Translations under genes and position numbers: made by a program | Part shown: in pieces, positions 38,194-62,621 of the stretch | How the letters are laid out: every line of letters begins with the position of its first letter | Numbering within the stretch: the stretch's first letter is position 1 | Notes under the pieces: model-generated | Database searches by the model: none | Seen by the model: the letters and a program-made list of their open reading frames with translations, nothing else | What the model was told of the DNA's origin: nothing | Assembly: GCF_902809845.1 (NCBI RefSeq) | Contig: NZ_CADDWI010000007.1 | Location: 62,001-126,000 of the forward strand | Origin: Chelativorans sp. Marseille-P2723 | Lineage (GTDB): Bacteria > Pseudomonadota > Alphaproteobacteria > Rhizobiales > Rhizobiaceae | Length of the DNA stretch: 64,000 bases | Direction of reading: 5' to 3'

Positions 38194-38203
38194 AAGTCGA
38201 CAT
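38194..38203. promoter_or_regulatory. GTCGAC operator 1
   Basis: GTCGAC at 38196-38201 lies in the leader of the NicX/M29-like gene (start 38143). It reads AATGTCGACTT towards that gene. It is proposed as a binding site of the GntR regulator encoded at 44371-45186. Confidence 0.55.
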
Positions 38204-38210
38204 TTTAGGA

Positions 38211-38220
38211 AAGTGTCAAC
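38211..38220. promoter_or_regulatory. degenerate copy of the operator
   Basis: AAGTGTCAAC differs from the consensus AAGTGTCGAC by one base. It lies 10 bases from operator 1. On the minus strand the same bases supply a TTGACA -35-like hexamer. Confidence 0.4.
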
Positions 38221-38343
38221 AAGCAATTGAAGCTGAAAGACTCCGGGTGTGTACTATTAAGCACTTGTTTTATAAGAAAAAATGATGTTAACGCGCATGA
38301 AAAGCATCAACGAGTTTTTTGTTCTCTGTGATAGAAAACCAAA

Positions 38344-38356
38344 ATGTGTCGACTTT
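38344..38356. promoter_or_regulatory. GTCGAC operator 2
   Basis: ATGTGTCGACTTT lies in the divergent gap between the NicX/M29-like and CoA-transferase genes. It shares GTGTCGACTTT with the copies at 46272 and 46458 (reverse). Confidence 0.6.
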
Positions 38357-38424
38357 CGATCTTGCAAGCGATGGCAGGATCCGCTTACGCCGTGTCATTT
38401 GCGGGTTGAGCGTAAAAGCTTCAA

Positions 38425-38437
38425 CTGTGTCGACTTC
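38425..38437. promoter_or_regulatory. GTCGAC operator 3
   Basis: CTGTGTCGACTTC is the third copy in the same gap, spaced 81 bases from operator 2 and 64 bases from operator 4 (centre to centre). Confidence 0.6.
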
Positions 38438-38489
38438 TTGTACCTTATATCCGTTACATATGGACAATTTCGCTTGATTTTGGAAAGAT

Positions 38490-38502
38490 AGTGTCGACAA
38501 AA
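38490..38502 (+). promoter_or_regulatory. GTCGAC operator 4, overlapping a probable -35
   Basis: AGTGTCGACAAAA lies 80-90 bases before the CoA-transferase start. TCGACA followed by 17 bases and TAGGCT could form the promoter, placing the operator on the -35 hexamer. Confidence 0.6.
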
Positions 38503-38584
38503 CATCGGAGCGAGACTAGGCTTGAACCAGTAGCGGACCCGGCCGCGCTCAGATTTTGTGCTGGCGAAGGAACGAGGGATCAGA

Positions 38585-39853
38585 ATGCCTAACAGCAGTT
38601 CGATGCATGAAAGAGCGGGAGAGCAATTCGCCGCGGGGATTGGGGAGAAAGCCCTAAGAGATATTACAGTCGTCGATCTGACCCAGTTCGAGGCGGGACC
38701 CTCTTGCACTCAGATGTTGGGTTGGCTCGGCGCCAATGTGATCAAGGTCGAGCCGCCGGTAAAGGGAGAGCAAGGCCGCCGCGCCTCGACGGATGACCCG
38801 GAAGTCGATTCTGTCTATTTCATGCTGCTCAACGCTAACAAGCGCAGCGTCACATGCAATCTGAAGCATGAGAAGGGCAAGGAGCTTCTGCGCCGGCTGA
38901 TCGAGAAGGCGGACGTCTTCATCGAGAATTTCGGCCCCGGTGTGATCGAGCGGCTTGGTTTCTCCTACGAAGAAGTGCAGAAGATCAATCCGCGCATCAT
39001 CTACGCACAGGTAAAGGGCTTCAATCCGTCCGGACCCTATGCGAACCTGCTCGCCTTCGACAACATTGCGCAAGCGGTGGGGGGTAGCCTTTCGGTAACG
39101 GGCGACGCGGACGGACGGCCGCTTACGCCGGGCGTGAATGTAGGCGACACCGGAAGCGGCCTGCATTGCTCGGTGGGGATACTTGCCGCGCTTTGGCAAC
39201 GTCAGCGCACCGGGAAAGGACAGCGGATCGAGATCGTCATGCAGGAAGCGGTCATCAATTTCGGCCGCATCCTTTATGCCGCACAGGACATTTTCAAGGC
39301 TCCGGTACCGCGCCGTGGAAACGCGCACATCATGGGAGCTAGCGCCCCTTGCGAGGTTTATCCATGCAAGGGAGGCGGGCCGAATGATTACTGCCTCATT
39401 TATACCAGCCGCGCGGGAAATCATCAGTGGCACGCCCTGCTTAAGGTAATGGGGCGGGAGGAGCTCATGGACGATCCGCGCTTTGCCAGTCCGCAGCTTC
39501 GCTTCCAGCATCAGGATGAGATCAATAAGCTGGTAACGGAATGGTCGCTTCAGAGGGACAAGCATACCTGCATGAAGGAGCTTGGCGAAGCAGGGGTGCC
39601 GGCGGGCGCCGTCTTCGATACGATGGAGCTTTATGAGGATCCCGTGCTTCGCAAGCAGGGCGCCTTCGTCACGGTCCAGCATCCGGTGCGCGGGGACTTT
39701 ACTATGCCCGGTTGTCCCGTACGCATGTCGGATTCGCCAATAGAGACCAAGGCGGCGCCTCTCCTTGGCGCCGATAATAACGATGTTTACCGTGGTCTGC
39801 TCGGGCTTTCGGAAGCTGAAATTGCAGGACTTGCGGAAGAGGAAGTGATCTAA
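38585..39853 (+). CDS. family III (CaiB/BaiF) CoA-transferase
   Basis: This 422-residue protein moves CoA from one acyl-CoA to a free carboxylic acid. It has the family opening 'VVDLTQFEAGPSCTQMLGWLGANVIKVE', the block 'NANKRSVTCNLKHEKGKELLRRLIEKADVFIENFGPGVIERLG' (in parts), and the catalytic Asp188 in 'VNVGDTGSGLH'. It ends with the GQR-containing region typical of formyl-CoA:oxalate-type enzymes. The ATG at 38585 has GAGGGA upstream; a GTG nine codons earlier is the alternative. It is monocistronic, with four operator copies upstream and a strong terminator downstream. The acid it activates is unknown. Confidence 0.9.
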   Translation: MPNSSSMHERAGEQFAAGIGEKALRDITVVDLTQFEAGPSCTQMLGWLGANVIKVEPPVKGEQGRRASTDDPEVDSVYFMLLNANKRSVTCNLKHEKGKELLRRLIEKADVFIENFGPGVIERLGFSYEEVQKINPRIIYAQVKGFNPSGPYANLLAFDNIAQAVGGSLSVTGDADGRPLTPGVNVGDTGSGLHCSVGILAALWQRQRTGKGQRIEIVMQEAVINFGRILYAAQDIFKAPVPRRGNAHIMGASAPCEVYPCKGGGPNDYCLIYTSRAGNHQWHALLKVMGREELMDDPRFASPQLRFQHQDEINKLVTEWSLQRDKHTCMKELGEAGVPAGAVFDTMELYEDPVLRKQGAFVTVQHPVRGDFTMPGCPVRMSDSPIETKAAPLLGADNNDVYRGLLGLSEAEIAGLAEEEVI

Positions 39854-39864
39854 CCTAAAGGATC

Positions 39865-39900
39865 TTAGCAGCTCCCGTTCGCATCGGGAGCTGCTAATTT
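39865..39900 (+). terminator. strong terminator hairpin after the CoA-transferase gene
   Basis: TTAGCAGCTCCCG (39865-39877) and CGGGAGCTGCTAA (39885-39897) are perfect 13-bp arms with a 7-base loop, followed by TTT. It begins 12 bases after the stop codon and insulates the gene from the insertion-sequence debris beyond. Confidence 0.8.
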
Positions 39901-39949
39901 ACGCGGCGAACCCTGCCCGGCCTACCAAATAGGAAACCTGCAGGTTTTA

Positions 39950-40264
39950 GTTTGTGCGACGCCCATGCGCGCCAGCATCCCTGCGTCCACCAGATCGGTC
40001 ATGGCGAGCTTTGCCAGTGGCTTCGGAAAACCGTTTTGCCTGGCGCGGGTTCACCTTGACCACGCGTCGGCGAGCCCACGCTCAAAAGCGCGGCGATAGA
40101 GGTCCCGCCGGCTCGTAGATCGCCCGGATAGGATGCGCCGAGCCATGACAGTAGGGCGCTGTGGCCGCTCCGTCATTGGTGAAGCGGCGGCTGGTGCCCT
40201 CGCTCACGCGGTAGGCATCGAGATTGGCTTTTGAGATGTCGACGCCGATGCTATCGTTGGTCAT
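39950..40264 (-). pseudogene. IS110 family transposase remnant (N-terminal part)
   Basis: On the minus strand from ATG 40264, 'SIGVDISKANLDAYRV' gives the DEDD-type IS110 N-terminus with the first catalytic Asp. 'AIYEPAG' follows (normally 'cyEaTG'). After frame breaks, 'VKVNPRQAKRFSEATGK' and 'AMTDLVDAGMLARMG' appear in different frames (normally 'KTDr.DA..la'). The C-terminal transposase half is absent. It is a decayed fragment of about 300 bases. Confidence 0.75.
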
Positions 40265-40536
40265 CTTTTGCTTGTCCTCCGGAGCCAAACTCCAGGTATC
40301 GTCAGGACCAAAGAGAAAGACGGCGGCGATTACCTTTAGCTCGAAACTGGATAGCCGGAGGTTCATCGATCCGCCTCTCGCCGCTTAGGAAGGGACGCAA
40401 CCCTTTCCCAGCGGTTCATGTTCGCTGGCTTAGCGAAGAAAGTGACAAGCGGTTCAGGCTGTGTCTGAATCGGAGGGGATTCCGGCTTACTGTGTATTGT
40501 GATTGAAGATGCTTATTGAGTGGCGACCAGCATCGG

Positions 40537-41016
40537 TTGGCGCGACCTCTTTCGAATGATCTTCGCAAGCGTAGTTCTGGCGATCAAGGCGCGGGAACGT
40601 TGCCCGACGGTGTGGTCTGCGGCGAAGTGGTCCAGCCTCACCGCCTAGGCGGGACTGTTAGCCGGATAAGACAAGATGGGCGGGCGCCGCAAGCGCGTTC
40701 TGGAGCCGGCCGGACTTTCATCGCCGAGCGGATCAGCCAGATGCCGCATCCGACGCTGCACAAGCCGAGGGAAGAGCTGGCAGTGGATGGGGTGATGATA
40801 GCGCACGATAGTGCGATTTTTGCGCCGCGAGAGGCTGCCGTTCAAGAAAAACGCTGTTCGCCGGGGAGAACGCGGCCGGCATTTCTCCCGGCGGCAAGGC
40901 TGGCGTGCCGTTCAGCCCGGTCTCGATCCCAGACGCCTGGTGTTCATCGACGAGACCTGGATCAAAGACCAACATGGCACCACTATGGCTGTGGACGAAA
41001 AGCCAAGCGCCTGCGC
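40537..41016 (+). pseudogene. IS630 family transposase remnant with frameshifts
   Basis: The plus strand shows IS630 pieces in changing frames. 'LARPLSNDLRKR' starts at 40537, 'TFIAERISQMPHPTLHK' lies near 40719, 'FLRRERLPFKKNAVRRGERGR' near 40815 and 'DPRRLVFIDETWIK' (with the catalytic Asp-Glu) near 40925. The similarity stops at about 41016, just before the convergent hydrolase stop codon at 41018, so the element is cut at its 3' end. It cannot encode an active transposase. Confidence 0.8.
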
Positions 41017-41017
41017 T

Positions 41018-41788
41018 CTAAATCTTCATCTCGGAGAGGAAGCTGTCTACCGCTGCGGCGAAATCTTGCGGGCATTCCACCTGCATCATGTGCGGCGCAT
41101 TTTCGAGAACTGTCAGCCGAGCGCCGGGGATCCGCTCTGCAATCGCCTGTAGCACCGCCGGGGGCGAGGCGGGATCGTGCCGTCCTGCAATGCATAGGGT
41201 GGGAACATTGATCCGATGAAGGCGGGGTTCGATATCTACCTGGCTGATCGCTTCCCAGACGGCGTTCCAGCCGGCCGGATCATCGGCAAGCAGTCGCTGC
41301 CGCACGGCTTCCGCTCCCCCACTTTCGAGAAATGCCGGCGTGAACCAGCGTTGCAGCGTCTCGTCCACAATCGCTTCCATCCCCATCGCGAGCGCAGCGC
41401 TGCCTCTGGCAGCCAGCACGGGGCGCGCCTGAGGCGGAAGGGTGGCAGGGCAGCCGGCCAGAACCAGCCGCGATGCCGCTTCCGGATAGGCGAGCGCCAA
41501 CTCCTGGGCGACCATGCCGCCAACAGAGAGGCCCACTATGGCGGCCGGCAGAAAATCCGCCTGCTTCAACGTGTGGTAAACATCCCCTGCATAGTCGGCC
41601 AGCGTCATGCCGGCGCGCGCGGGCGACGAGGCCCCATGACCTGCCAGGTCAAGCCGCAAAATGCGAAACCGCGGCGAAAGCAGGGCAGCGACCTCGTCCC
41701 AGCCCGTTAGGTCAAGCCCGGCAGGGTGAATGAGGACGACCCTCGGTCCGGAGCCACTGATTTCATAGTTGAGCGTTTGGGGCGTCAC
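41018..41788 (-). CDS. alpha/beta hydrolase
   Basis: This 256-residue cytoplasmic hydrolase has the oxyanion strand 'VVLIHPAGLDLTGWD', the nucleophile elbow GLSVG with Ser88, Asp in 'LCIAGRHDPASPP' and a terminal His in 'LENAPHMMQVECPQDF'. It resembles 3-oxoadipate enol-lactonase and C-C bond hydrolases. The start is GTG at 41788 with GGAGGAGGAGG upstream, 24 bases after the ThDP enzyme gene, so both are one operon. Unlike the hydrolase at 36279, it keeps Ser. The substrate is unknown. Confidence 0.87.
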   Translation of the reverse strand: MTPQTLNYEISGSGPRVVLIHPAGLDLTGWDEVAALLSPRFRILRLDLAGHGASSPARAGMTLADYAGDVYHTLKQADFLPAAIVGLSVGGMVAQELALAYPEAASRLVLAGCPATLPPQARPVLAARGSAALAMGMEAIVDETLQRWFTPAFLESGGAEAVRQRLLADDPAGWNAVWEAISQVDIEPRLHRINVPTLCIAGRHDPASPPAVLQAIAERIPGARLTVLENAPHMMQVECPQDFAAAVDSFLSEMKI

Positions 41789-41812
41789 GACCTCCTCCTC
41801 CCGGCCATGTTC

Positions 41813-43447
41813 CTAGGTGCTGTAATTGGTGAAGTTAGCAGTGCCCGCTCGGGCCCGCCAGTCGGTTACCACATTGACGAGCGCGACACGCCCCTTGGCG
41901 ACCTCGGCCGCCGCCCGTTCGAGAGCGGGCCGGATACCCTCCGGCCGCTCCACATACTCCCCATAGCAGCCGAAGGCCTCTGCCATCTGGTCAAACCGAG
42001 TATAGCCCAGGTCGCGGCCGGGCTTCTTCCGTTCGGGATCCGCAGTCCAGCCGCCATTCAGGCTGATAACGATGAGGACTGGCAGCTTGTGGCGAACTGC
42101 CGTGTCGATTTCCAGCCCATTGAGTCCGAAGGACCCGTCGCCGTGGAGCACCACTACATCGCGCTCCGGCGCTGCCGCCTTCGCACCGAGCCCGAAAGGC
42201 AAGCCGACGCCCATCGTCCCGAAGGGCCCAGAATTCAGACGATGACCCGGACGGTAGCTGGGAATCGTCTGCCTGCCGTAGTTCAGGATCTCCTGACCGT
42301 CCACGCACAGAATTGCATCGCGAGAGATGAAGTCGCGGATCTCCTTGCACAGCCTGAGCGGGTGGATCGGCGTTTGATCGCTGGAAAGCGATGCTTCGTG
42401 CTTTTCTTCCTTGCGCCGGTTTTCCGCAGCAAGACGTTCCCGCCAGGGGGCATAGCGTTCGGGGTCCAACTTGCCTTCCGCCGCGCTGCGCAATTGGTTA
42501 AGCACTTGTCCGGCGTCTCCGACCAGTCCCGCTTCAAGGCGGAGCGAGCTGTCGATCTCTGCCGGATCTATGTCGATCCGAACGAGCCGCGCATTCTCGG
42601 AAAAGCGCGGTGGCTCGCCATAGGAGAAGACGTAGTTGAGCCGCGTTCCCGCAACGATCACGAGGTCTGCTTCGCGAAACGCCGCTGAGCGCGCAAGCGG
42701 AAAGAAGAAGTCGTGATCCTCGGGGATGACACCACGCCCCTGCGGGGTGGTGTAGAAGGGGATGCCCGTTGCCTCCACGAAGGCCTGCAGGACTTCGGAA
42801 GCTTGCGACCAGATGATGCCGCTACCGGTCAGAAGCAGCGGACGCTCGGCCTTGCCAAGCAGTTCGACAACCCGCGCTATCTCTGCGGGGTCGGCCGCCG
42901 GCTTCGCCTGCGGCTGCTTCCGCGGCCAGCGGACGGAAGCCTCGTCCACATCTGCGTAAAGCACGTCGCCCGGCAGGTCGAGATAAACGGGGCCGGGCTT
43001 TCCGGACGCCGCAATGCGGAAAGCACGCGCCACATATTCGGGAATGCGGGCGGCGTCATGAACACGCTCGGCGAATTTCGTTACCGGCTTCATGATCGCA
43101 AGCTGGTCGATTTCCTGGAAGGCGCCGCGTGCATATTGGCCAATCGGGCTCGACCCACCAAAAGCGACGACAGGGGCACAATCGATCAGCGCATTGGCAA
43201 GGCCGGTGGAAAGATTGATAGTGCCCGGACCAGACGCGGCGACGCAGAAACCGGGTTTTGCCCGTATGCGCGCATAGGCTTGCGCCATCATCGCCGCTGC
43301 CTGCTCGTGGCGTACGTCGATCATGCGCACGCCCTGCGCCGTGCACGCTTTGATCGCGTCATTGGAGGGGCCGCCCATGAGGAAGAAGCCGACGTCACTC
43401 CCTTCGGCTGCCACTGCCTGTCCGAACAGCTCGTATCCCTTGACCAT
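41813..43447 (-). CDS. ThDP-dependent lyase/decarboxylase (2-hydroxyacyl-CoA lyase / oxalyl-CoA decarboxylase-like)
   Basis: This 544-residue ThDP enzyme has three domains. The N-terminal pyrimidine-binding domain has the activating Glu48 (VRHEQAAAMM). There is a central domain (about 190-320). The C-terminal diphosphate-binding domain has GDG (436-438), then 25 residues, then Asn464 (SLNGG). 'FNNGG'-like wording and 'GRDLGYTRFDQMAEAFG' are closer to 2-hydroxyacyl-CoA lyase/oxalyl-CoA decarboxylase than to acetolactate synthase. With a family III CoA-transferase in the same regulon, a CoA-thioester substrate is likely. AAAGGGG precedes the ATG, and two GTCGAC sites lie upstream. Confidence 0.85.
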   Translation of the reverse strand: MVKGYELFGQAVAAEGSDVGFFLMGGPSNDAIKACTAQGVRMIDVRHEQAAAMMAQAYARIRAKPGFCVAASGPGTINLSTGLANALIDCAPVVAFGGSSPIGQYARGAFQEIDQLAIMKPVTKFAERVHDAARIPEYVARAFRIAASGKPGPVYLDLPGDVLYADVDEASVRWPRKQPQAKPAADPAEIARVVELLGKAERPLLLTGSGIIWSQASEVLQAFVEATGIPFYTTPQGRGVIPEDHDFFFPLARSAAFREADLVIVAGTRLNYVFSYGEPPRFSENARLVRIDIDPAEIDSSLRLEAGLVGDAGQVLNQLRSAAEGKLDPERYAPWRERLAAENRRKEEKHEASLSSDQTPIHPLRLCKEIRDFISRDAILCVDGQEILNYGRQTIPSYRPGHRLNSGPFGTMGVGLPFGLGAKAAAPERDVVVLHGDGSFGLNGLEIDTAVRHKLPVLIVISLNGGWTADPERKKPGRDLGYTRFDQMAEAFGCYGEYVERPEGIRPALERAAAEVAKGRVALVNVVTDWRARAGTANFTNYST

Positions 43448-43566
43448 CGCTAATACCCCTTTCCCGTTCCATCCTTGCCGGACTGCCCGCTCTTCCAGCC
43501 TGACGGATAGCCGGGGCCGTTCGTACGGCTAGTTGGCTAATTGGTATGCTATAGTTGAGCGGCCAT

Positions 43567-43578
43567 CTTGTCGACATA
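43567..43578 (-). promoter_or_regulatory. GTCGAC operator 5
   Basis: CTTGTCGACATA lies about 125 bases upstream of the ThDP enzyme gene. On the minus strand TCGACA, 17 bases and TAGCAT would make a promoter overlapped by the palindrome. Confidence 0.55.
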
Positions 43579-43629
43579 ACATATATCTACAGACAGTACA
43601 TAAGCATATTCAGAGAAAACAGCCTATAA

Positions 43630-43639
43630 CTGTCGACAG
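43630..43639. promoter_or_regulatory. GTCGAC operator 6 (perfect 10-bp palindrome)
   Basis: CTGTCGACAG is a perfect palindrome 62 bases from operator 5, in the same gap upstream of the ThDP enzyme gene. The spacing is near six helical turns, which would allow both sites on one DNA face. Confidence 0.55.
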
Positions 43640-43718
43640 AAATGGAGCGCGGGACAATGATGATGCTGCTCAACGGCAGCCTCTCAGATGCAGACGTTTG
43701 TTCTGCGAGAGAAGCCGT

Positions 43719-44315
43719 TCAAAGCCTGGGATCGTAGGGCGCGTAGGTGGTGGCAAGATCCAACGCGTCGGCAAAGCGCCCCAGCCGCGGCAGCAACACA
43801 CCGATGGCGATTGGCGCATGCGCCTCGACCAGTACGTAATGATCGGCGCTCTCGCTGCAGGCGAACACGCGCAACCTGGTAGTCTCCAAGTGCTTGCCGA
43901 AGGCCTCGCGCAGCGTGGTGACCAACTCCGCTTCCCCGTTTCCGGCAATTCCATGAAAACGCAGGACCATGAGGCGGGAGGCGCGTCCGGTGAGGGCGTT
44001 ACCTGGTTCGATCTGCCGGCCGATCCGCCGGTCGACTAGGACGCGGCTGGTGACACGCTTTGTCCAGGGGCTGGATGATTCGCCTGAGACTGCTTTGTAG
44101 GCTTCGCTGTCCAGTACATCTGGCCTTTCCAGATCGTACATTGCCAGATAGCGGGGATGACCATCGACGCTGACAAAGCGGCGCGCCGAGAGAAACCCAG
44201 GCACAGCCAGCCGTTCCGGCACATGTTCCGTATCATACCATTCGTTGAATTCCTCTTCCATCGCCGGCGGCGGCTGCATCATGACAAGGAGAAAGCCGTA
44301 TTGCGCGTTGTCCAT
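43719..44315 (-). CDS. EthD/dimeric alpha-beta barrel-like hypothetical protein
   Basis: This 198-residue protein appears to be two ferredoxin-like alpha+beta repeats. The first has 'MMQPPPAMEEEFNEWYDTEHVPERLAVPGFLSARRFV' (in parts), the EthD-type signature with Trp-Tyr-x-x-Glu-His. The second (about 105-198) has 'LMVLRFHGIAGNGEAELVTTL'. Family members act as small decarboxylases, monooxygenase helpers or lactone-processing enzymes; none is firmly assigned. The ATG follows GAGGTGAGGAG. It lies 55 bases downstream of the GntR gene in the same direction, so it likely belongs to the regulator operon. Confidence 0.75.
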   Translation of the reverse strand: MDNAQYGFLLVMMQPPPAMEEEFNEWYDTEHVPERLAVPGFLSARRFVSVDGHPRYLAMYDLERPDVLDSEAYKAVSGESSSPWTKRVTSRVLVDRRIGRQIEPGNALTGRASRLMVLRFHGIAGNGEAELVTTLREAFGKHLETTRLRVFACSESADHYVLVEAHAPIAIGVLLPRLGRFADALDLATTYAPYDPRL

Positions 44316-44370
44316 CTGCTCCTCACCTCATTCTTACAGGCGTTGTTGGTGATTGCTTTCCCTGTGCGGC

Positions 44371-45186
44371 TCAACGTTTGCTGCGCTGGCCACGTTTGCT
44401 GGTCGCTTCCTCCGCGGCGAGGAAGCCTTCGAGCCGCTTCAAGGCGCCTGCGATGTTGGAGCGCATGATGGCCTGGGCAAGAACGGGGTCGCGATCACGA
44501 TAGGCCTGAAGGAGATAGCTATGGTCGCGGCAGGACCGCTCGATGCCTTCCGGCCGTGACAGGCTGAGCTTGCGGAAGGAAAGCGAGCGCAGGTGAAGGG
44601 AATCCAGTATGCGCGTGACCACCTGATTGTTGGCTATCCTGTTGTTTTTCTCGTGAAAGTCGGTGTTGCTCCACAAATACGCGGAATAGTTCCGTGCCGC
44701 GCAGTCGGCCTTCATGATTTCAAGCTGGTCTGCAAGTTCGTCGATCTGCTCGGGCGTGGCCGTAACGGCAACCTTGGCCACAACCAGTTCCAGCAGCGCG
44801 GAACGGGTGTGATAAATGTCACGCACCGCTGAGGCGTTCCACTTCATGACTCTCGGGCGCCGTCGCGGCGGAATGTCGACAAGGCCTTCCTTTTCCAGAA
44901 GCATAAGGGCTTCGCGGATCGGCGTGCGGCTGGTGCGGTACTGGGTGGATAGGTCAACCGAATTCAGGTCCTCGCCTGGCTGCCGGATGCCCTCGATGAT
45001 CTCGGCACCAATCTCGCAGGCAAGCTCCGATACGAGGGATGGCCGGACATGCCGTTGCGCCACGACGCGGCGTACCATAGCCGCAGCGTTGCGGAAGGAT
45101 TCTGTGCGTTCCGCGCCGTTCTCTACCCATTCCGGCCGGAATATGGTTTCTCCGGAGGGACGGTTATCGTCGTCTGGATTTTGCAT
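44371..45186 (-). CDS. GntR family regulator, FCD subfamily
   Basis: This 271-residue protein has an N-terminal winged helix (about 50-115) with 'LSTQYRTSRTPIREALMLLEKEGLVDIPPRRRPRVM', the GntR helix-turn-helix and wing. A C-terminal FCD ligand domain (about 125-255) keeps the metal-type residues in 'SNTDFHEKNNRIANN' and 'SCRDHSYLLQAY'. FCD regulators are dimeric, sense small organic acids and bind short palindromes. It is embedded between the Gfo/Idh gene (2-base gap) and the EthD-like gene. Its best candidate operators are the GTCGAC palindromes across the island, including one upstream of its own operon, so autoregulation is likely. Confidence 0.92.
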   Translation of the reverse strand: MQNPDDDNRPSGETIFRPEWVENGAERTESFRNAAAMVRRVVAQRHVRPSLVSELACEIGAEIIEGIRQPGEDLNSVDLSTQYRTSRTPIREALMLLEKEGLVDIPPRRRPRVMKWNASAVRDIYHTRSALLELVVAKVAVTATPEQIDELADQLEIMKADCAARNYSAYLWSNTDFHEKNNRIANNQVVTRILDSLHLRSLSFRKLSLSRPEGIERSCRDHSYLLQAYRDRDPVLAQAIMRSNIAGALKRLEGFLAAEEATSKRGQRSKR

Positions 45187-45188
45187 GG

Positions 45189-46223
45189 CTATTTCCCCGC
45201 AGTTTCCTCCAGCATCGCTAGCGGCTCATCAGGTGTGCCGCGCTTTTCTCCCGATTTTCCTCCGGTTGCATATGCGCTGTCCAGTAATCTCACTACCTTG
45301 GCCATATCACTCAGATCTGCGACCGGCGGAAGGCCTTCCCGCAAGCGTCGCACGACGTCGCGCACGAATTGAGGATATATCTCGATGTTGGTTGTCGTAC
45401 CGGCGATGCGCCGGCGGTTTCCGGCCAGATCGCAAATGTCGATTGCGCCGGGCCCGGTCGCGGTGAAATAATGGTTCTCAGTGCGCACGGAGAAGTGCAT
45501 GTCAAAAATGCCTGTAGGAGCTGGATATAGATAACCCGTCTCAACGTGGCCAAGCGCGCCGCCATTGCGAAGAGTCACGGCGGCAAAGTCCTCGACGTTA
45601 CCTTCACCGCTGAAGTTCATGAATTCTGCGGAGGAAACGCTTGTATCGTCCACGGAGGTCAGCACCTGCATCAGATCGAGAAAATGCACGCCAAGATTGG
45701 TAAGGGAGCCGCCGCCCGCTTCTTGCCGGTCGAACATCCACTCGCAGCCTGCCTCACGGTAGCGCGAGGTAAGCCCCGCAATGAACTTGAACCCGGCATA
45801 AAGCACTTTCTCGCCACCTGCAGTTTCACGCACCGCCTGCATGAAGCCGCTGGAACGGAAGACAAGGGGCACGGCTGCAAAGACCCCGGCTTTTTCGGCT
45901 TCCCGTGCGATGCCTTCGACCTCTCCTGCGCCGATGCCTGCCGGCTTCTCGATCACGAAAGGAATACGCTCGCCGATAAGATAGCTGGCGGACTCGGCCA
46001 TGGCGGAGTGCTTTCCCAGCACGAATGCGAGATCCGGGCGGGCGGAGGCGCAGAGCCGCTCAAGACTGGTCTCAGATATGCATCCGTACCGATTCGCAAG
46101 CGAGGCCGCCACCTGCGCATCGGGATCGCAAACGCCGGAAAGCTGGACGCTCTCCAGCCGCAGCAGCGGTTCGAGGTAGAGCGGCGTATGCCAATGGCTT
46201 ACGCCAGCGAAGACAACTTTCAT
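45189..46223 (-). CDS. Gfo/Idh/MocA family oxidoreductase
   Basis: This 344-residue protein has a Rossmann N-terminal half ('MKVVFAGVSHWHTPLYLEPLL', then 'GVCDPDAQVAASLANRYG'), the family's Glu-Lys-Pro motif (FVIEKPAGI) and a C-terminal alpha/beta domain with 'GGGSLTNLGVHFLDLMQ' (His and Asp at the active-site helix). It oxidises or reduces polyols, sugars or inosose-like substrates with NAD(P). The glycine motif GVSHWHT departs from the usual GxGxxA/G, so cofactor binding may differ. It is first in the operon with the GntR and EthD-like genes. The ATG at 46223 has a GGAAGAG site upstream. Confidence 0.85.
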   Translation of the reverse strand: MKVVFAGVSHWHTPLYLEPLLRLESVQLSGVCDPDAQVAASLANRYGCISETSLERLCASARPDLAFVLGKHSAMAESASYLIGERIPFVIEKPAGIGAGEVEGIAREAEKAGVFAAVPLVFRSSGFMQAVRETAGGEKVLYAGFKFIAGLTSRYREAGCEWMFDRQEAGGGSLTNLGVHFLDLMQVLTSVDDTSVSSAEFMNFSGEGNVEDFAAVTLRNGGALGHVETGYLYPAPTGIFDMHFSVRTENHYFTATGPGAIDICDLAGNRRRIAGTTTNIEIYPQFVRDVVRRLREGLPPVADLSDMAKVVRLLDSAYATGGKSGEKRGTPDEPLAMLEETAGK

Positions 46224-46271
46224 GGTGCGCGGATCTCTTCCTGTTGGCACGAGATTGCATTGTCGAGGGAC

Positions 46272-46285
46272 AAGTGTCGACTTTT
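46272..46285 (-). promoter_or_regulatory. GTCGAC operator 7
   Basis: AAGTGTCGACTTTT is the best match to the consensus. It lies about 50-60 bases upstream of the Gfo/Idh-GntR operon start, so it can mediate autoregulation of the GntR gene. Confidence 0.65.
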
Positions 46286-46457
46286 TGGGGCGTTGTTGCA
46301 AGCGCTTTCGTGGCGCGACGTTTGTCAAGAGGACGCTTGTCGTTCTTGCGGATCGCGGAAGATGGCTGGTTTCTTGTGTGGACGAAACTTCTTGCGTTGA
46401 GGGAAGAAAAGTTTGGGTGACCCAAGAGGGAGAATTCCGACTTGGGCAGGATTATAG

Positions 46458-46471
46458 AAAGTCGACACTTT
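46458..46471 (+). promoter_or_regulatory. GTCGAC operator 8
   Basis: AAAGTCGACACTTT is the reverse complement of AAAGTGTCGACTTT, nearly identical to operator 7. It lies 75-90 bases before the SDR gene. TCGACA plus 17 bases to AATATT is a plausible overlapped promoter. A partial copy (AGTGTCGAAG) follows at 46513. Confidence 0.65.
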
Positions 46472-46544
46472 AGCAATAATGCGCAATATTCACGCTGCCA
46501 ACCTCCGTCTGGAGTGTCGAAGAATCATCATAAGGGAGTAAAGG

Positions 46545-47375
46545 ATGAAGACCTGGCTGGTGACGGGCGCCTCGGGTGGCTTGGGAGCGGCAATCACAAA
46601 AGCAGCGCTGCACCGCGGCGACCGGGTGGTGGTCAGTGCGCGGAATATTGAAGGCGCTCGCGCGCTTGCGAGGGAAGTGCCCGACAGGGCACTGGCCGTT
46701 CGGATCGACGTAGAGGATTCCCAAAGCATCAGCCGGGGGATTGAGGAGGCCCTCGCCTGGGCAGGGCGGATAGACGTGCTCGTCAACAATGCCGGTAGAG
46801 GATTTCACGGCGCAGTGGAGGAGGTGAGCGACGCGGAGGCACGTGCCCTATTCGAGACTAATGTCTTCGGCCTGCTTTCCGTGACCCGCCCTGTTCTTGC
46901 CCATATGCGTGAAAATCGCACTGGGCATGTCATCAATATCGGATCCATGGCAGGATTGGCTTCGGGCGCTGGAACCGGCATCTATTGCGCCACGAAATTC
47001 GCCCTGGAGGGAATATCCGAAGCAATGCACGCGGAACTTTCGCCCCTGGGCATCAAGGTGACGATTGTGGAGCCTGGTCCGTTCCGTACGGAATTTAATG
47101 GCAGTTCCATTCGTCAGGCGGCGCGCTCCATTCCCGACTATGAGAGTACAGCAGGCGAGCGAATCGCGGCGTTGCGCGCGTCCAACGGCCACCAGCCAGG
47201 CGATCCCGCCAAGGCGGCAGAACTCATCTGCGACATTGCAGCCATGGATAGCCCGCCCTTGCATCTGGTGGTCGGCGGAGCCGCCATTGAACGGGCGCAA
47301 AGAAAGCTGGAGCAGCTCGGCGCCGAGATTGCCGCCTGGGAAGAACGCAGCCGCGCCACCAGCTTCAGCAGTTGA
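46545..47375 (+). CDS. SDR family oxidoreductase
   Basis: This 276-residue classical SDR has the cofactor motif TGASGGLG and the structural motif NNAGRGFHG. The catalytic Ser is in 'NIGSMAGLASG' and Tyr-x-x-x-Lys in 'GIYCATKFALEGISE'. 'VEPGPFRTEF' follows. 'SARN' at the end of strand 2 (an Arg) suggests NADP preference. It resembles oxidoreductases of the DltE/YbbO type. It is the first gene of a two-gene operon with the CoA hydrolase-like gene, under operator 8. The substrate is unknown. Confidence 0.88.
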   Translation: MKTWLVTGASGGLGAAITKAALHRGDRVVVSARNIEGARALAREVPDRALAVRIDVEDSQSISRGIEEALAWAGRIDVLVNNAGRGFHGAVEEVSDAEARALFETNVFGLLSVTRPVLAHMRENRTGHVINIGSMAGLASGAGTGIYCATKFALEGISEAMHAELSPLGIKVTIVEPGPFRTEFNGSSIRQAARSIPDYESTAGERIAALRASNGHQPGDPAKAAELICDIAAMDSPPLHLVVGGAAIERAQRKLEQLGAEIAAWEERSRATSFSS

Positions 47376-47401
47376 TTTTCTTCAGAGTGTGAAGATATGG
47401 G

Positions 47402-48397
47402 ATGGGAGAGGAAACATTGGGGAACGGGAGAAGTGACGGTGAAGACCGTCCCATTCGCACAGAGGAACTAGGGTCAGCCAGGATAATCGTGCTCGACAGG
47501 CCAAGGGCGCTTAATGCGTTGAGCCAGGCCATGGTGGATGCGCTTGCCGAAACGCTCGGCAACTGGCGCCGGGACGCTTCGGTAAAGTCAGTCATCCTAA
47601 AGGGCGCGGGAGACAGAGCTTTCTCTGCAGGCGCTGACGTGCGGGCGATGTGGGCTCATGCCCGCGCGGGCGAATACGATGCCATCGAGGACTATTTCGC
47701 AGCCGAATATGCGCTCGACCTAGCAATTGCGATCTATCCGAAACCCATATTGTCGATTGTGAACGGCATCTGTTTTGGCGGTGGCATGGCGCTTGCGGTC
47801 CACAGCCGATACTGCGTGGCGGGGGAGGGAGCGAGCTTCTCCATGCCGGAGACGCTGATCGGCTTCTTCCCCGATGCCGGAGCGACGTATTTCCTTTCCC
47901 GTCTTCCAGGAGCCATTGGCCGTTATTTGGGCATGACGGGTGCCCGGCTGAGCGGAGCGGACGCCGTGCATCTCGGCCTTGCCACCCACTACGTACCGGG
48001 CAAGGACCATGAACGAGCAGCGCAGGCTTTTGCAGAAGGCGGCGAATCTGCCCTTGCTGAATTGACGGTGCCGCTGCCGCCTTTCTCCCTGGCGCCCCAT
48101 CGCGAGGCGATCGATGCCGGTTTCAGTGCTGACACGGTGGAAGGCGTATTCGAACGCCTGCGTGCGCAGGATACCGAATGGGCTCGGCAGACGCTGGACG
48201 TACTTGAGCAGCGCTCCCCGGCCTCGCTGCAGTGGACTCTCGAAAGTTTGCGGGCCGGTAGAGGGCGGACGCTCGAAGAATGCCTTGCAGCGGAACTTGA
48301 ACTGGTTCGCGTCTCCACCGCCCATCTCGACTTTGCGGAAGGTGTCCGGGCCGCTCTTGTGGACAAGGACCGGCAGCCAAATTGGCAACGCAGATAG
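47402..48397 (+). CDS. enoyl-CoA hydratase/isomerase superfamily, 3-hydroxyisobutyryl-CoA hydrolase-like
   Basis: This protein of about 331 residues has the crotonase fold, with the first oxyanion block 'AFSAGADVRAMW' and the second 'PILSIVNGICFGGGMAL'. 'MPETLIGFFPDAGATYFLSRL' and the C-terminal 'DFAEGVRAALVDKDRQPNW' are specific to 3-hydroxyisobutyryl-CoA hydrolases. It would release a free hydroxy acid from its CoA ester, or hydrate an enoyl-CoA. ATG at 47402 lacks a clear site; TTG at 47417 has GAGAGG at ideal spacing and may be the real start. It follows the SDR gene by 26 bases and is likely cotranscribed. Confidence 0.85.
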   Translation: MGEETLGNGRSDGEDRPIRTEELGSARIIVLDRPRALNALSQAMVDALAETLGNWRRDASVKSVILKGAGDRAFSAGADVRAMWAHARAGEYDAIEDYFAAEYALDLAIAIYPKPILSIVNGICFGGGMALAVHSRYCVAGEGASFSMPETLIGFFPDAGATYFLSRLPGAIGRYLGMTGARLSGADAVHLGLATHYVPGKDHERAAQAFAEGGESALAELTVPLPPFSLAPHREAIDAGFSADTVEGVFERLRAQDTEWARQTLDVLEQRSPASLQWTLESLRAGRGRTLEECLAAELELVRVSTAHLDFAEGVRAALVDKDRQPNWQRR

Positions 48398-48903
48398 AAC
48401 CGGCAGCGCATCATGCGCCGGCTGGCCTCAAGCGGTCGCTCAACCCTTCGCAAGGTTCGATATTGCAACTTTCTCCAAGGGCGTTCCGTGTCCGGTAATT
48501 AACCTGGCTCTCGTCCTACGGGATAGGCTAAACGCCGCCGAGCTAGAGCACATCCGGTTTAATATGGTGCATATTTTAATATGGTGCATATCCGGAAGCT
48601 TGAAGCAATTTCGCGCATTCTGTGGAGTGAAGCGGCCGAGGATCGAGGCGATCGTGTCCCTAGGGCAGCGATGTTCTTTCGGCCTTTGCGCGCAGCAGCC
48701 CTTTAGAGCCTGCAGGCGCGACGCACGCCTAGTCAATGTCTACCGAACAACCCATGCGGTACGCCATCCTCCCGCGCTCATTGTTCTTCCCATCACCCAC
48801 CTGCGCCAAAGCGGACCCTGAAGCACCCGCCAACGCAAAACGTCACATCTCAATCGACTCATCGATAGCGAGGCGTGCTCCAGGCTGGTCCTGCCTCTTG
48901 CGG
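48398..48903. other. 506-base convergent gap with a tandem repeat
   Basis: This gap lies between the ends of the rightward SDR operon and the leftward tct operon. It contains the 17-bp duplication listed separately. I see no clear intrinsic terminator and no supported gene. Confidence 0.5.
48558..48591. repeat. perfect tandem duplication of 17 bp
   Basis: TTTAATATGGTGCATAT occurs twice head to tail (48558-48574 and 48575-48591). The pair is flanked by CATCCGG on the left and CCGGAAG on the right. It is AT-rich in a GC-rich gap. It may be a slippage duplication within a dispersed intergenic repeat; the unit was not seen elsewhere in the window. Confidence 0.85.
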
Positions 48904-50415
48904 TCAAATGCTTTCTGGCTCCTGGAAGACCACGTTGCGCTTCTTGCGTAGTCCAGGCAGCGCCATCAATACGAGAGCAAGAAGCGAACAGCCCAATAGG
49001 CCGGCACTGATCGGCCGTTCGATGAATATCAGAGGGTCGCCTCGCGAGATGATCAAGGCGCGTCGGAACTGCTCTTCCAGAAGCGGTCCGAGGACAAAGC
49101 CCATCAGCAGTGGTGCTGGTTCGAAACGCAGCCGCATCAACGCGTAGCCCATCAGCCCGAAGAAGGAGACGAGCACCACCTCCACCGTGGAGAGCGAAAC
49201 AGCATAGACCCCGACCATGCAGAAGGCGATGATGGCGGGAAACAGGTATCTGTAGGGGATGAGCAACAGTCTTACCCAAAGCCCGATCAGCGGCAGGTTT
49301 AGGATGACGAGAAAGATGTTGCCGATCCACATGGATGCTACCAGGCCCCAGAAGAGCTCGGGATTGCTTGAGATCACAGTCGGTCCTGGGCGGATGCCCT
49401 GGATGATGAGCGCCCCGATCATCAGTGCCATGACCGGATTGGCCGGCAGGCCGAGCGTCAGCATGGGAATGAAGGAGGTCTGAGCGGCAGCATTGTTTGC
49501 CGATTCAGGTCCCGCTACGCCTTCGATCGCCCCATCTCCAACCTTGACCGGCCCCTTTGCGAAGCGCTTTTCCGCGGAATAGGACGCGAAAGAGGAAAGC
49601 GTCGCACCCGCTCCGGGCAGGAGTCCGAGAAAAGAGCCGATGGCCGTGCCTCGAAGTATGGAGGGCGTCATCAGGCGGAAATCCCGCAGCGTGGGGAAGA
49701 GACCTTTCACGCGAGTCGTGGTCAGGTCCTGCTGGGTGGTATTCTCCAGATTGCGGATGATCTCACCGATGCCGAACAAGCCAACGGAGATAACGACAAA
49801 GCTGATGCCGTCTGCCAGCGCCATGTAGCCGAATGTCAAGCGATGGCTGCCTGTGTACAGATCGGTGCCTACCATCGACAGCATGATGCCTACGATGATC
49901 ATGGCGAGCGACTTCAGTACCGGACCGTGCGCCAGGGTTGAGGAAGCAACGAGCCCGAGCACGATCAGGGCGAAATATTCGGCTGCGCCAAAGCGCAGCG
50001 CCAGATGCGACAGAGGAAGGGCAAAAAGAGCAATGAGAAAGGTCGCCACCGTACCGGCGAAGAGCGAGCCGAGCGCGGCTGTGGCGAGTGCGGGACCCGC
50101 GCGGCCCTTCTGCGCCATCTTGTAGCCGTCTATCGCCGTAACGACGGAAGAACCTTCCCCCGGAATGCGTACCAGAATGGCGGTGGTCGATCCGCCATAT
50201 TGCGAGCCGTAATAAATGCCGGCCAGCATGATGAGTGCAGGCAGCGGATCGAGCGCGAAGGTGATCGGCAGAAGCAGCGCTATCGTGGCTGTTGCGCCGA
50301 TCCCCGGCAGCACCCCGATCGCCGTTCCGAGAATGGCACCCACGAGGCAATAAAGAAGATTTTCAAATGAGAAGACAGCGTTGAAACCGATGCCCAGGCC
50401 TGCCAGTATCTCCAT
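48904..50415 (-). CDS. tctA: tripartite tricarboxylate transporter permease TctA
   Basis: This large membrane subunit of 503 residues has about twelve hydrophobic segments and the TctA blocks 'GVLPGIGATATIALLLPITF' and 'YYGSQYGGSTTAILVRIPGEGSS'. The later 'GSFLGLLPGAGATLSSFASY' shows the internal repeat. TTT systems import carboxylates such as citrate, tartrate or aromatic acids using a periplasmic binding protein. I chose ATG at 50415, with AGGA upstream, not the TTG one codon earlier. The order tctC-tctB-tctA on the minus strand is standard. Operator 9 lies upstream of the operon. Confidence 0.93.
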   Translation of the reverse strand: MEILAGLGIGFNAVFSFENLLYCLVGAILGTAIGVLPGIGATATIALLLPITFALDPLPALIMLAGIYYGSQYGGSTTAILVRIPGEGSSVVTAIDGYKMAQKGRAGPALATAALGSLFAGTVATFLIALFALPLSHLALRFGAAEYFALIVLGLVASSTLAHGPVLKSLAMIIVGIMLSMVGTDLYTGSHRLTFGYMALADGISFVVISVGLFGIGEIIRNLENTTQQDLTTTRVKGLFPTLRDFRLMTPSILRGTAIGSFLGLLPGAGATLSSFASYSAEKRFAKGPVKVGDGAIEGVAGPESANNAAAQTSFIPMLTLGLPANPVMALMIGALIIQGIRPGPTVISSNPELFWGLVASMWIGNIFLVILNLPLIGLWVRLLLIPYRYLFPAIIAFCMVGVYAVSLSTVEVVLVSFFGLMGYALMRLRFEPAPLLMGFVLGPLLEEQFRRALIISRGDPLIFIERPISAGLLGCSLLALVLMALPGLRKKRNVVFQEPESI

Positions 50416-50464
50416 CAATCCTGTCCCGATATGTTGTTGCGCCTCTTCCGGCTTGCCTCAGGGC

Positions 50465-50938
50465 TCAGAACGCAAGCAATGGGCCGAACATCTGCAGCGG
50501 CAGGCCGAGCATCCATCGGAAAAGCGCAAGGCAGAAAAGCACCATGGCGAGTGAGACGCCGAGCGCGCCGACCAATGTTGTCGTGCGATTGGCGAGTGCG
50601 GCGGCGAACACGGAAACACCCAGCGCCGGGGCAAGGCCTAGCGGCACGACAATAAGCGCGAAGATGAGTGGGGCAGCCGCAACCAGCAGGATGCCGCGCA
50701 GCGGTACCGGCCCGCCCGCTTCGCCCGGGTGCTCCTCCTCTTCGCTCGAAGGGTCTGCCCTAAGGGCCTGGACGGTCATTGCTACGCCGAAAAGAACCAG
50801 AAGCCCCGCGAGCATCATGGGAAACAGGCCTGAGCCTATTCCCAGTGAACTCGTCATGCTCAGATTGCTGGCTGCGAGCGCATAGACGCCCGCAAATGCC
50901 AGCAAAGTGAGCCCGCCGGCGAAATCGCGTTTGAGCAT
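50465..50938 (-). CDS. tctB: tripartite tricarboxylate transporter small subunit TctB
   Basis: This 157-residue protein has four hydrophobic segments, an N-terminal 'GIGSGLFPMMLAGLLVLFGVAMT' block and an acidic linker at about 65-75 (SSEEEEHPGEAGG). This is the normal TctB size and layout. It forms the small membrane part of the transporter with TctA. GGAGGAG precedes the ATG, and 33 bases separate it from tctC. Confidence 0.88.
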   Translation of the reverse strand: MLKRDFAGGLTLLAFAGVYALAASNLSMTSSLGIGSGLFPMMLAGLLVLFGVAMTVQALRADPSSEEEEHPGEAGGPVPLRGILLVAAAPLIFALIVVPLGLAPALGVSVFAAALANRTTTLVGALGVSLAMVLFCLALFRWMLGLPLQMFGPLLAF

Positions 50939-50971
50939 GCTTTCTCCTCCAGCGCCCCGGCACGATCCGCC

Positions 50972-51940
50972 CTATTCGACGCGAATACCCGCAGCTTCGA
51001 CAATCTCGCCCCAGCGCTTTGTGTCCGCGATGATGAGATCGCGCAATTCCTCTGGCGAGGAGGAGACTGGATCAAGGCCGCTGTCGTGATAACGGTTGAT
51101 AACCTCTTCATTGGCAAGAGCGGCCTGCGTAGCCTCGCTCACCTTCTGGATGACCTCGTCAGGCGTCCCGGCCGGAGCCATGAGAGCACCCCAGGCAGCC
51201 GCCTCATAACCTTCAAGACCCGCCTCCTGCATCGTTGGCACATCAGGCAGCGTCCGGTTTCGCCGCGAGTTGGTCACCGCAATGGCGACCAGTTCGCCAG
51301 ATTCGATATGCGGCAGTGCGGAGGGCGGTGAGTCCATCACCATGTCGACCTCACCGGACACCACGGCCACGCGGGCTTCCGCCGAACCCTTGTAGGGCAC
51401 CTGACGCATTTCAATGTCCGCCATCATCTCCAGCATGACCGCGAACATCTGCACGGAGGAGCCGATCCCGGCCGATCCATAGGAAAGTTCTTCCGGCTTT
51501 TCCTTCGCCAGGGCGATTAGTTCCTCAAGCGTATCGACGCCGAGCGAGGGACGGACCACCAGCACGTGATCGACCTCGAAGGTCTTTGAGATCGGAACAA
51601 GGTCTTCCATCACGTCGAAATCCGTTTCGTAAAGATGCGGATTCGTCGTCATGGTGCCCATGGTCGCATAAAGCAGCGTGTAGCCGTCTGGGGCGGCAGC
51701 GGCGCCATAGGCCACGCCGATATTACCCGCGGCGCCTGTACGGTTTTCCACGACCACGGACTGGCCGAGCTCCTTGCTGAGCTGGTCGGCGAGGATGCGC
51801 GCGGAAACGTCAGTCGCTCCGCCGGGTGCGAAGGGGACGACGAGCGTGATGGGCTTGGATGGCCACTCCTGAGCGGCCGCAGCGCCGGTCAAGATGCAGG
51901 CGGCGGCCGCGAGACCAAGAAAAGTGCGACGAACGATCAT
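50972..51940 (-). CDS. tctC: tripartite tricarboxylate transporter substrate-binding protein TctC
   Basis: This 322-residue periplasmic protein has a signal peptide (about 1-24, ending AAA). It has the Bug/TctC pattern 'WPSKPITLVVPFAPGGATDVSARILADQLSKELGQ' in parts, then 'VVENRTGAAGNIG' and 'YGSAGIGSSVQMF'. Bug proteins bind carboxylates through two water molecules held by backbone loops, so the ligand should be an acid. AGGGAGG precedes the ATG. It is the first gene of the tctCBA operon; operators 9 and 10 lie upstream. Confidence 0.93.
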   Translation of the reverse strand: MIVRRTFLGLAAAACILTGAAAAQEWPSKPITLVVPFAPGGATDVSARILADQLSKELGQSVVVENRTGAAGNIGVAYGAAAAPDGYTLLYATMGTMTTNPHLYETDFDVMEDLVPISKTFEVDHVLVVRPSLGVDTLEELIALAKEKPEELSYGSAGIGSSVQMFAVMLEMMADIEMRQVPYKGSAEARVAVVSGEVDMVMDSPPSALPHIESGELVAIAVTNSRRNRTLPDVPTMQEAGLEGYEAAAWGALMAPAGTPDEVIQKVSEATQAALANEEVINRYHDSGLDPVSSSPEELRDLIIADTKRWGEIVEAAGIRVE

Positions 51941-52022
51941 TGATTCCTCCCTGAAAGAATCCTGTTACAAAATGGGCTCCAGTTGCAGCCGCCCATAAAT
52001 GCATCATATCTGACCGAGTGGA

Positions 52023-52037
52023 GTTGTCGACACTTTT
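52023..52037 (-). promoter_or_regulatory. GTCGAC operator 9
   Basis: GTTGTCGACACTTTT reads AAAAGTGTCGACAAC on the minus strand, about 85-95 bases upstream of tctC. TCGACA, 16 bases and TATGAT form a convincing promoter overlapped by the palindrome. Confidence 0.65.
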
Positions 52038-52390
52038 GATGAAGTGGTGCCCCTAAGAATCTGGCATGTTCCCGCACCGGAGGGGAAAGTGTGCTATGCT
52101 TGGACTTTGAACCAGGCGCTGACCGGGCGCCCCGCGCGGAAAGGCCCGTACTATGGTGGCCCACTGGGCGGAGCCGGAAGGCCGTAGCGCGCGCAATGAC
52201 AGGCGTAACCGTGTCTTTCTTTGCCTCGCATGCCTTCCACGAAATCTTCCTTCGCGCGATGGTGGCTTTTACAAGCTATCCTGAAAAGCAGACTTTACGG
52301 CGACATTCACCATCTTTATCGGCTCTCCGCTCTTGCCTGTAAGTTCTGGCGGATGAGAAAAAAGCGCTCTCCCTCGGCGGAGCGTTCATT

Positions 52391-52405
52391 TTAAGTGTCG
52401 ACATA
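52391..52405 (+). promoter_or_regulatory. GTCGAC operator 10
   Basis: TTAAGTGTCGACATA lies about 235 bases before the dipeptide-type binding-protein gene. An AT-rich TATTTATAAAA stretch follows at once and could contain the -10. Confidence 0.6.
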
Positions 52406-54278: not shown

Positions 54279-54488
54279 ATCGGCCCGCGTGATTTCTTCG
54301 GCGCCGGCGAACACTTCCACGTGGATCCGGCGCCCAAGGATTATGAAACGCAATCGCTAACACCGGGATGTCGAGACAATAATGATGCCGCCCCGCTTAG
54401 CCCACGCTTCCGAACGATGCCTGGCGTCTGTTCCAGCGCGGATGCGCCAGGAAATGCGCTGTCTGCATGAAGACGAGGCTAGTGCGCG

Positions 54489-56382: not shown

Positions 56383-56399
56383 ACAGGAAGGAGCGAGCA

Positions 56400-60595: not shown

Positions 60596-60602
60596 GGCTG
60601 CC

Positions 60603-61703: not shown

Positions 61704-61720
61704 CTCGGCTTTTCCTGACA

Positions 61721-62611: not shown

Positions 62612-62621
62612 AGGGGCGCTC

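Follow-up and report, generated by a model that had tools for sequence, protein, structure and literature searches.

GTCGAC palindromes ahead of seven transcription units in a Chelativorans catabolic island are very probably operators of an autoregulated FCD-type GntR regulator

What is the role of ten copies of one short palindrome in the intergenic DNA of a catabolic gene island? The island lies in a 64,000-nucleotide stretch of Chelativorans sp. Marseille-P2723 (contig NZ_CADDWI010000007.1, positions 62,001 to 126,000 of the forward strand), termed here the window. An original prediction, made from the letters of the window, assigned ten GTCGAC copies to a GntR regulator encoded at 44371-45186, which carries an FCD domain. 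We found that these copies are very probably the operators of this regulator, which would also control its own operon. The proposed link gained support from the co-occurrence of regulator and target gene, from the recurrence of the sites in related genomes, from the position of the GntR protein as the sole shared regulator and from the core of a known operator, that of PrpR; the binding itself we infer. The ten putative operators (none with a strand assigned) and the regulator are as follows.

38196..38201, no strand: operator 1, GTCGAC core 55 bp upstream of the M29-like gene start
38348..38353, no strand: operator 2, in the gap common to the M29-like (minus) and CoA-transferase (plus) genes
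38429..38434, no strand: operator 3, in the same M29 (minus)/CoA-transferase (plus) gap
38493..38498, no strand: operator 4, 89 bp upstream of the CoA-transferase start
43570..43575, no strand: operator 5, 125 bp upstream of the thiamine-diphosphate enzyme gene
43632..43637, no strand: operator 6, 187 bp upstream of the thiamine-diphosphate enzyme gene
46276..46281, no strand: operator 7, 55 bp upstream of the Gfo/Idh-GntR operon (the regulator's own)
46461..46466, no strand: operator 8, 81 bp upstream of the short-chain dehydrogenase/reductase (SDR) gene
52026..52031, no strand: operator 9, 88 bp upstream of tctC
52397..52402, no strand: operator 10, 238 bp upstream of the dpp-like binding-protein gene
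44371..45186, minus strand: FCD-type GntR regulator, 271 amino acids (aa), the proposed operator binder (Pfam GntR PF00392, 3.6e-11; FCD PF07729, 7.3e-23; both above the curated cut-off)

A recount in the window returned all ten predicted coordinates exactly, and all ten copies fell in gaps of a scripted gene map. GTCGAC had also been said to occur in coding DNA elsewhere in the window, and 20 of the 22 other copies were indeed inside called genes; the last two (30178 and 57532) were outside called genes, both within long open frames missed by the caller. The 32 copies in the window compare with a mean of 16.6 (standard deviation, 4.4) in 100 shuffles. The enrichment was far stronger in the four gaps, which comprise 1,730 noncoding bases with 52% GC and hold 10 copies against 0.35 expected. 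None of 5,000 dinucleotide shuffles of the gaps reached at least 10 copies, and the top count over all 64 hexamer palindromes in shuffled gaps stayed at or below 8 (1,000 shuffles). As predicted, the extended form AGTGTCGAC was confined within the window to these gaps (5 copies, none elsewhere). The predicted extended consensus itself was refined, to AAGTGTCGACA with A/T-rich outer flanks. An A or a T flanks the core on both sides in 10/10 window sites and in 20/20 sites from related genomes, and the outer flank is mostly A/T; both sets, with their GT-CG-AC centre, were chosen for GTCGAC. Beyond about 5 bases on each side of the core, the letters of the palindrome vary, which argues against a longer repeat unit.

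We then looked into the positions of the sites relative to the genes. The count of seven units in four gaps still stands: the M29-like gene (minus), the CoA-transferase (plus), the thiamine-diphosphate enzyme (minus), the Gfo/Idh-GntR-small protein operon (minus), the SDR-ECH unit (plus), TctCBA (minus) and the dpp-like operon (plus). Each gap holds at least two sites, 62 to 371 bp apart, and the site nearest to the start codon of each of the seven units is located 55 to 238 bp away, the regulator's own operon included, distances that fit an autoregulated repressor. Operator 1 overlaps the first ATG of the longest M29 frame. Alignment with orthologues places the start at 38143 instead, with an AGGGAG stretch just ahead (by eye), and the centre of operator 1 is thus 55 bp upstream. 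The thiamine-diphosphate enzyme unit shares its strand with the GntR unit and lies downstream of it; the promoter served by its two sites may thus be an internal one. A degenerate copy, AAGTGTCAACA, was seen at 38212-38222, about 17 bp from operator 1.

The regulator and its proposed target are rare and occur together. At an E value of at most 1e-35, the regulator was found in 6 of 394 sampled genomes of the family and in 1 of 385 sampled genomes of the class (the own genome). The M29-like gene, at an E value of at most 1e-60, was found in 7 of the 394 family genomes, including all six with the regulator; the seventh, G379, is 69% complete. Both genes were missing, at these thresholds, from 387/394 genomes. 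The hypergeometric probability of this co-occurrence is 1e-12, or 8e-11 when the own genome is left out, with genomes taken as independent. Such rarity and co-occurrence point to the GntR protein, which was also the only regulator seen among the genes common to the window and to the islands of the relatives, a further pointer to it.

The same palindrome recurred in these relatives. AAGTGTCGACA was present ahead of the M29 gene in all five other genomes in which the upstream DNA is readable, the nearest TGTCGACA palindrome being 75 (G030), 96 (G177), 53 (G287), 98 (G379) and 94 bp (G050) upstream of the M29 start codon; this recurrence ahead of orthologous genes points to the GntR protein as well. 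The gaps of these five islands contain 20 GTCGAC sites. They were kept from 26 places above the matrix threshold (12 in one scan, 11 in another) in the relatives' islands and flanks; of the six dropped places, five were inside called genes and one, a GTCGGC, overlapped another site. Sites were also found ahead of the alpha/beta-hydrolase gene (G177, G379 and G050), of a hydrolase/small-protein run (G287) and, in G030, of an SDR operon and one further operon. GTCGAC was the commonest hexamer palindrome in six of seven promoter gaps of the relatives (alone in three, tied in three). In pattern scans of six relatives' genomes, four places were located at the island in each of G030, G287 and G379 and three in G050, the rest being scattered. 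Taken together, the sites ahead of seven operons and those ahead of matching genes in relatives are very probably the switch sites of one local regulator.

The protein fits the FadR/FCD subfamily, with a GntR winged helix-turn-helix, an FCD domain and, as its putative operator, a palindrome with a GT-N(2-3)-AC centre and A/T-rich flanks. The other five regulators are 40 to 47% identical to it, and TSRTPxRE and PPRRRPR are unchanged in all six orthologues. R87, T88 and R91 are invariant in the six and match, by eye, the DNA contacts R45, T46 and R49 of Atu1419. We take the FCD metal residues to be an Asp and three His, at ligand positions assumed by us and compared with solved FCD chains. The third His is Asn in 6/6 orthologues, and the residue four before the first His, usually Asp, is N, G, S, S, S and N. 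With two of the four usual metal residues replaced in the six orthologues, the protein does not fall among the metal-binding (VanR-type) FCD regulators. Among the plasmid records searched, no relative of the regulator was found at an E value of at most 1e-25. A search of genome contigs gave one, in a Bradyrhizobium metagenome-assembled genome (L031 5319-5909), 73% identical over residues 30 to 148 and with an apparently broken frame; it adjoins genes common to the G287 and G050 islands.

Operators of this kind have been described. FCD-GntR dimers recognize short palindromes in which 2 or 3 bases separate GT from AC (PMC4494728), and GT-N2-AC motifs with A/T-rich flanks, as in the window, are given for the FadR-subfamily regulators GntR, HpxS, HypR, MdcY, PrpR and UxuR (Suvorova et al. 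2015, PMC4494728). Among the groups of that study covered by our comparison, none has an M29/NicX-type target. The closest counterpart is PrpR (PA0797), an FCD-GntR repressor of the methylcitrate operon of Pseudomonas aeruginosa, which gel-shifts its promoter region and for which footprinting predicted the operator ATTGTCGACAAT (PMC9765439). PrpR shares with the window system the regulator type, a palindrome with the same eight central bases (ATTGTCGACAAT) and the regulation of its own operon, and its TGTCGACA core adds to the support for the GntR protein. However, one palindrome and one operon are named for PrpR against ten sites and seven units in the window, the target genes are different, and the outer flank is AAGTG in PrpR versus ATTG in the window (PMC9765439). 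Judged by its gene neighbourhood, the window regulator was not recognized as a PrpR orthologue, no prp-type gene being present among the 19 window genes scanned. The exact PrpR 12-mer ATTGTCGACAAT also occurs in G087, at the start of an FCD-GntR gene (L035 9191-12002) whose product is 32% identical to the window regulator; the operator type thus extends beyond Pseudomonas. By eye, this gene adjoins PrpF-, PrpB- and Tct-like genes, making up a PrpR-type system in a different family of the order. Atu1419 of Agrobacterium fabrum binds ATGTATACAT via R45, while T46 and R49 contact the backbone (PMC7797058). It resembles the window system as an FCD-GntR over a catabolic island, with several operators including one at its own gene and with GT-N2-AC spacing (ATGTATACAT), whereas its core letters differ, it belongs to the VanR group of PF07729 and its effector domain holds Zn (PMC7797058), in contrast to the replaced metal residues reported above. 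A literature search on GntR/FCD operators and GTGTCGAC palindromes, judged from titles and abstract openings with supplements excluded, found no publication on this island. The type of system is well known, and this particular regulon appears undescribed.

We then scanned the own genome (3.77 Mb in 13 contigs, including the window). The original prediction had named equally strong extended sites in intergenic DNA elsewhere as evidence that would speak against it; the scan, run by pattern, found none. AGTGTCGAC matched 19 places, 5 in the island and 14 elsewhere, 12 of the latter in called genes. WNTGTCGACWNW matched 17 distinct places (24 rows, some palindromes counted twice), 6 in the island and 11 elsewhere, and its reversed control pattern matched 1. 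The Poisson values for the concentration in the island, 3e-9 for AGTGTCGAC and 7e-12 for WNTGTCGACWNW, are optimistic because the patterns were drawn from these very sites. Of the 25 outside places of the two patterns, 22 were inside called genes, and the three in gaps scored 6.8, 5.4 and 11.6 with the window matrix versus 16.6 to 22.7 for the ten sites, on which that matrix was trained. A matrix built from the 20 relatives' sites ranked eight of the ten window sites 1st to 8th, and all ten within the first 17, over 103 kb (the window and 39 kb of flanking DNA). In the same 103 kb, a calibrated sequence model built from the relatives' sites gave five matches, 5/5 at island sites.

Several observations weigh against the assignment. 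The relatives' sites were found with the window matrix, so their likeness is partly selected. The pattern scan found a single island place in G177 and none in G304, which has the regulator and the M29 gene and no site on the contigs examined; the G304 M29 operon (branched-chain-type ABC genes, hydrolase, small protein and M29) runs off a 6.2-kb contig, and its promoter is therefore unreadable. No site was present on the 11-kb GntR contig of G050 or on the 6.7-kb Bradyrhizobium stretch L031, and the incomplete G379, with both sites and the M29 gene, yielded no regulator. The regulator of G177 and that of G287 are each about 10 kb from the M29 sites within a one-strand gene run, which one called gene breaks in G177, and we assume the regulator to be part of that unit. 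At other places of the own genome, the window matrix gave strong matches of 20.7 and 19.6 inside genes (by eye, a sugar-nucleotide epimerase-like gene and elongation factor G), and the relatives' matrix gave 21.9, 19.1 and 15.6, also inside genes. A GTCGAC site scoring 15.0 (L061 1997, G000 C13) is no more than 20 bases into a called MocR-like gene and could actually be noncoding. Over the whole genome, the sequence model returned two places at an E value of at most 10, one in the island and one inside a C13 gene, in a run that scored 150 of 782 candidates; as a genome scanner, this sequence-only covariance model was dropped, its two matches reflecting too little information. Nor does the operator generally overlap a -35 box (TCGACA read as TTGACA): 5 of 30 sites have a fair -10 against 3.7 expected. 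Eight promoter-like matches were found in the 36-54 kb region versus 5.9 expected, and four of them use a palindrome site.

Could the palindromes be non-regulatory, a product of chance in A/T-richer gaps or copies of a repeated element? The window as a whole does hold an excess of GTCGAC, mostly inside genes, but the shuffles of the gaps argue against chance, the variable letters around the core against a repeated element, and the recurrence of the palindrome ahead of orthologues in five other genomes against any non-regulatory origin, which we regard as highly improbable. The sites might also be operators of another regulator encoded elsewhere, such as a PrpR-like FCD protein, with the local GntR protein binding something else. 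Such a protein would fit the TGTCGACA core of PrpR (PMC9765439) and its occurrence at the G087 gene start; the own genome offers other candidates, with 6 matches to the regulator at an E value of at most 0.001 (itself included), and G379 has sites without a detected regulator. This reading nevertheless seems improbable to us given that regulator and M29 gene occur together in six genomes and are both missing from nearly all others at the thresholds used. Moreover, the pattern listings of the own and six relatives' genomes show, by eye, no other spot with three places within 15 kb.

The mode of control raises a different alternative, in which the local GntR protein activates transcription, or loops the DNA between paired sites as reported for the tetrameric Atu1419, instead of simply repressing. 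In favor of this, each of the four gaps has at least two sites, and Atu1419 loops over 190 bp (PMC7797058). Against looping, 14 spacings between neighbouring sites from six genomes revealed no 10.5-bp helical phasing (Rayleigh p 0.55), and helical phasing was rejected as a feature of the sites. PrpR and Atu1419, two FCD-GntR proteins with a known sign of control, are both repressors (PMC9765439, PMC7797058), and we hold an activator or a looping mechanism to be unlikely. We favor the local GntR protein as an autoregulated repressor. A dimer would read the two halves of (A)AGTGTCGACA, and with at least one copy ahead of each of the seven transcription units, one protein could control the whole catabolic island and its own operon. 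The functions under its control would be Tct and Dpp uptake, the M29/NicX-like enzyme, hydrolases, the CoA-transferase, the thiamine-diphosphate enzyme and oxidoreductases. The repressor would leave the DNA once an acidic pathway intermediate binds the FCD domain. Relief by a pathway intermediate is probable in our opinion, although the sign of control, the ligand and the substrate are what we infer.

We finally analyzed the genes of the island, which are the following.

36279..37070, minus strand: alpha/beta hydrolase, downstream of the M29-like gene (start estimated by eye)
37079..38143, minus strand: NicX/M29-like enzyme, 354 aa (Pfam M29, 28.1 bits versus a cut-off of 27), core gene of the proposed regulon
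38585..39853, plus strand: class III CoA-transferase (PF02515, 4e-108)
41018..41788, minus strand: alpha/beta hydrolase, shared core gene (Pfam scan)
41813..43447, minus strand: thiamine-diphosphate enzyme (Pfam scan)
43719..44315, minus strand: small protein, shared core gene (EthD/ABM-like, below curated cut-offs only)
45189..46223, minus strand: Gfo/Idh/MocA oxidoreductase, first gene of the GntR operon (a relative also in the G030 island)
46545..48397, plus strand: SDR and 3-hydroxyisobutyryl-CoA hydrolase-like genes
48904..51940, minus strand: tctCBA tripartite transporter
52638..58434, plus strand: dpp/opp-type ABC transporter operon

The label NicX/M29 held in its M29-like part, and NicX proved too specific. 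The match to NicX (2,5-dihydroxypyridine 5,6-dioxygenase) of PDB 7cn3 is weak (E value, 2.4e-07) and covers only residues 204 to 348, the C-terminal part, which makes a dioxygenase role a lead rather than a result. An HxD pair is kept in the M29-like family (IHMD and CHLD), and a Glu lies near the NicX His of HIGWG (by eye). For this comparison, the NicX metal ligands are those that we take them to be. Relatives of the M29-like protein were found in 5 plasmid records (33 to 39% identity). Between the CoA-transferase and hydrolase genes, more than 1 kb (39854-41017) has no convincing gene; its short frames look transposase-like by eye, and the transposase remnants suspected at 40.1-41.2 kb received no Pfam support. 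A haem uptake operon (HemS, binding protein, FecCD permease and ATPase) at 59798-63680 adjoins the island and has no extended palindrome.

Across the islands, the recurring core consists of the M29-like enzyme, the alpha/beta hydrolase, the small protein with sub-threshold EthD/ABM likeness and the regulator, and the transporters and side enzymes vary: Tct and Dpp in the window, and sugar-type ABC, TRAP or branched-chain-type ABC transporters in the relatives. In G050, the M29-like gene (L071 18915-19501, L072) is cut short near the contig end and followed by an apparent transposase start, with the operators intact. On G304 contig C440 (L073 2675), a strong copy, AGTGTCGACAT, overlaps, by eye, the start of another M29-like gene beside branched-chain-type ABC genes. 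Three relatives (L045 11283, L069 17772 and L071 16092) carry TGTCGACAG within the alpha/beta-hydrolase gene as well, where it could reflect protein conservation or an intragenic operator.

For the catabolic island, a regulator, an operator code and a local target list are now proposed, with the operator seen in six genomes, and the TGTCGACA operator type known from PrpR would gain a second kind of target. We tentatively put forward, as a reading about which we are still divided, that a travelling catabolic module is under the control of an undescribed FCD-GntR branch in which two of the usual metal ligands are absent. Its constant core (M29/NicX-like enzyme, alpha/beta hydrolase, small EthD-like protein and regulator) would be joined by lineage-specific, unrelated transporters and side enzymes, each controlled via an acquired AAGTGTCGACA operator. 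If this is true, both the substrate and the M29-like enzyme's reaction would be new. The regulator system is of a known kind, and the pathway is the more open part. As the target units share one switch, the regulator offers a way to the substrate: the compound that releases it from the operator would be the inducer of the pathway.

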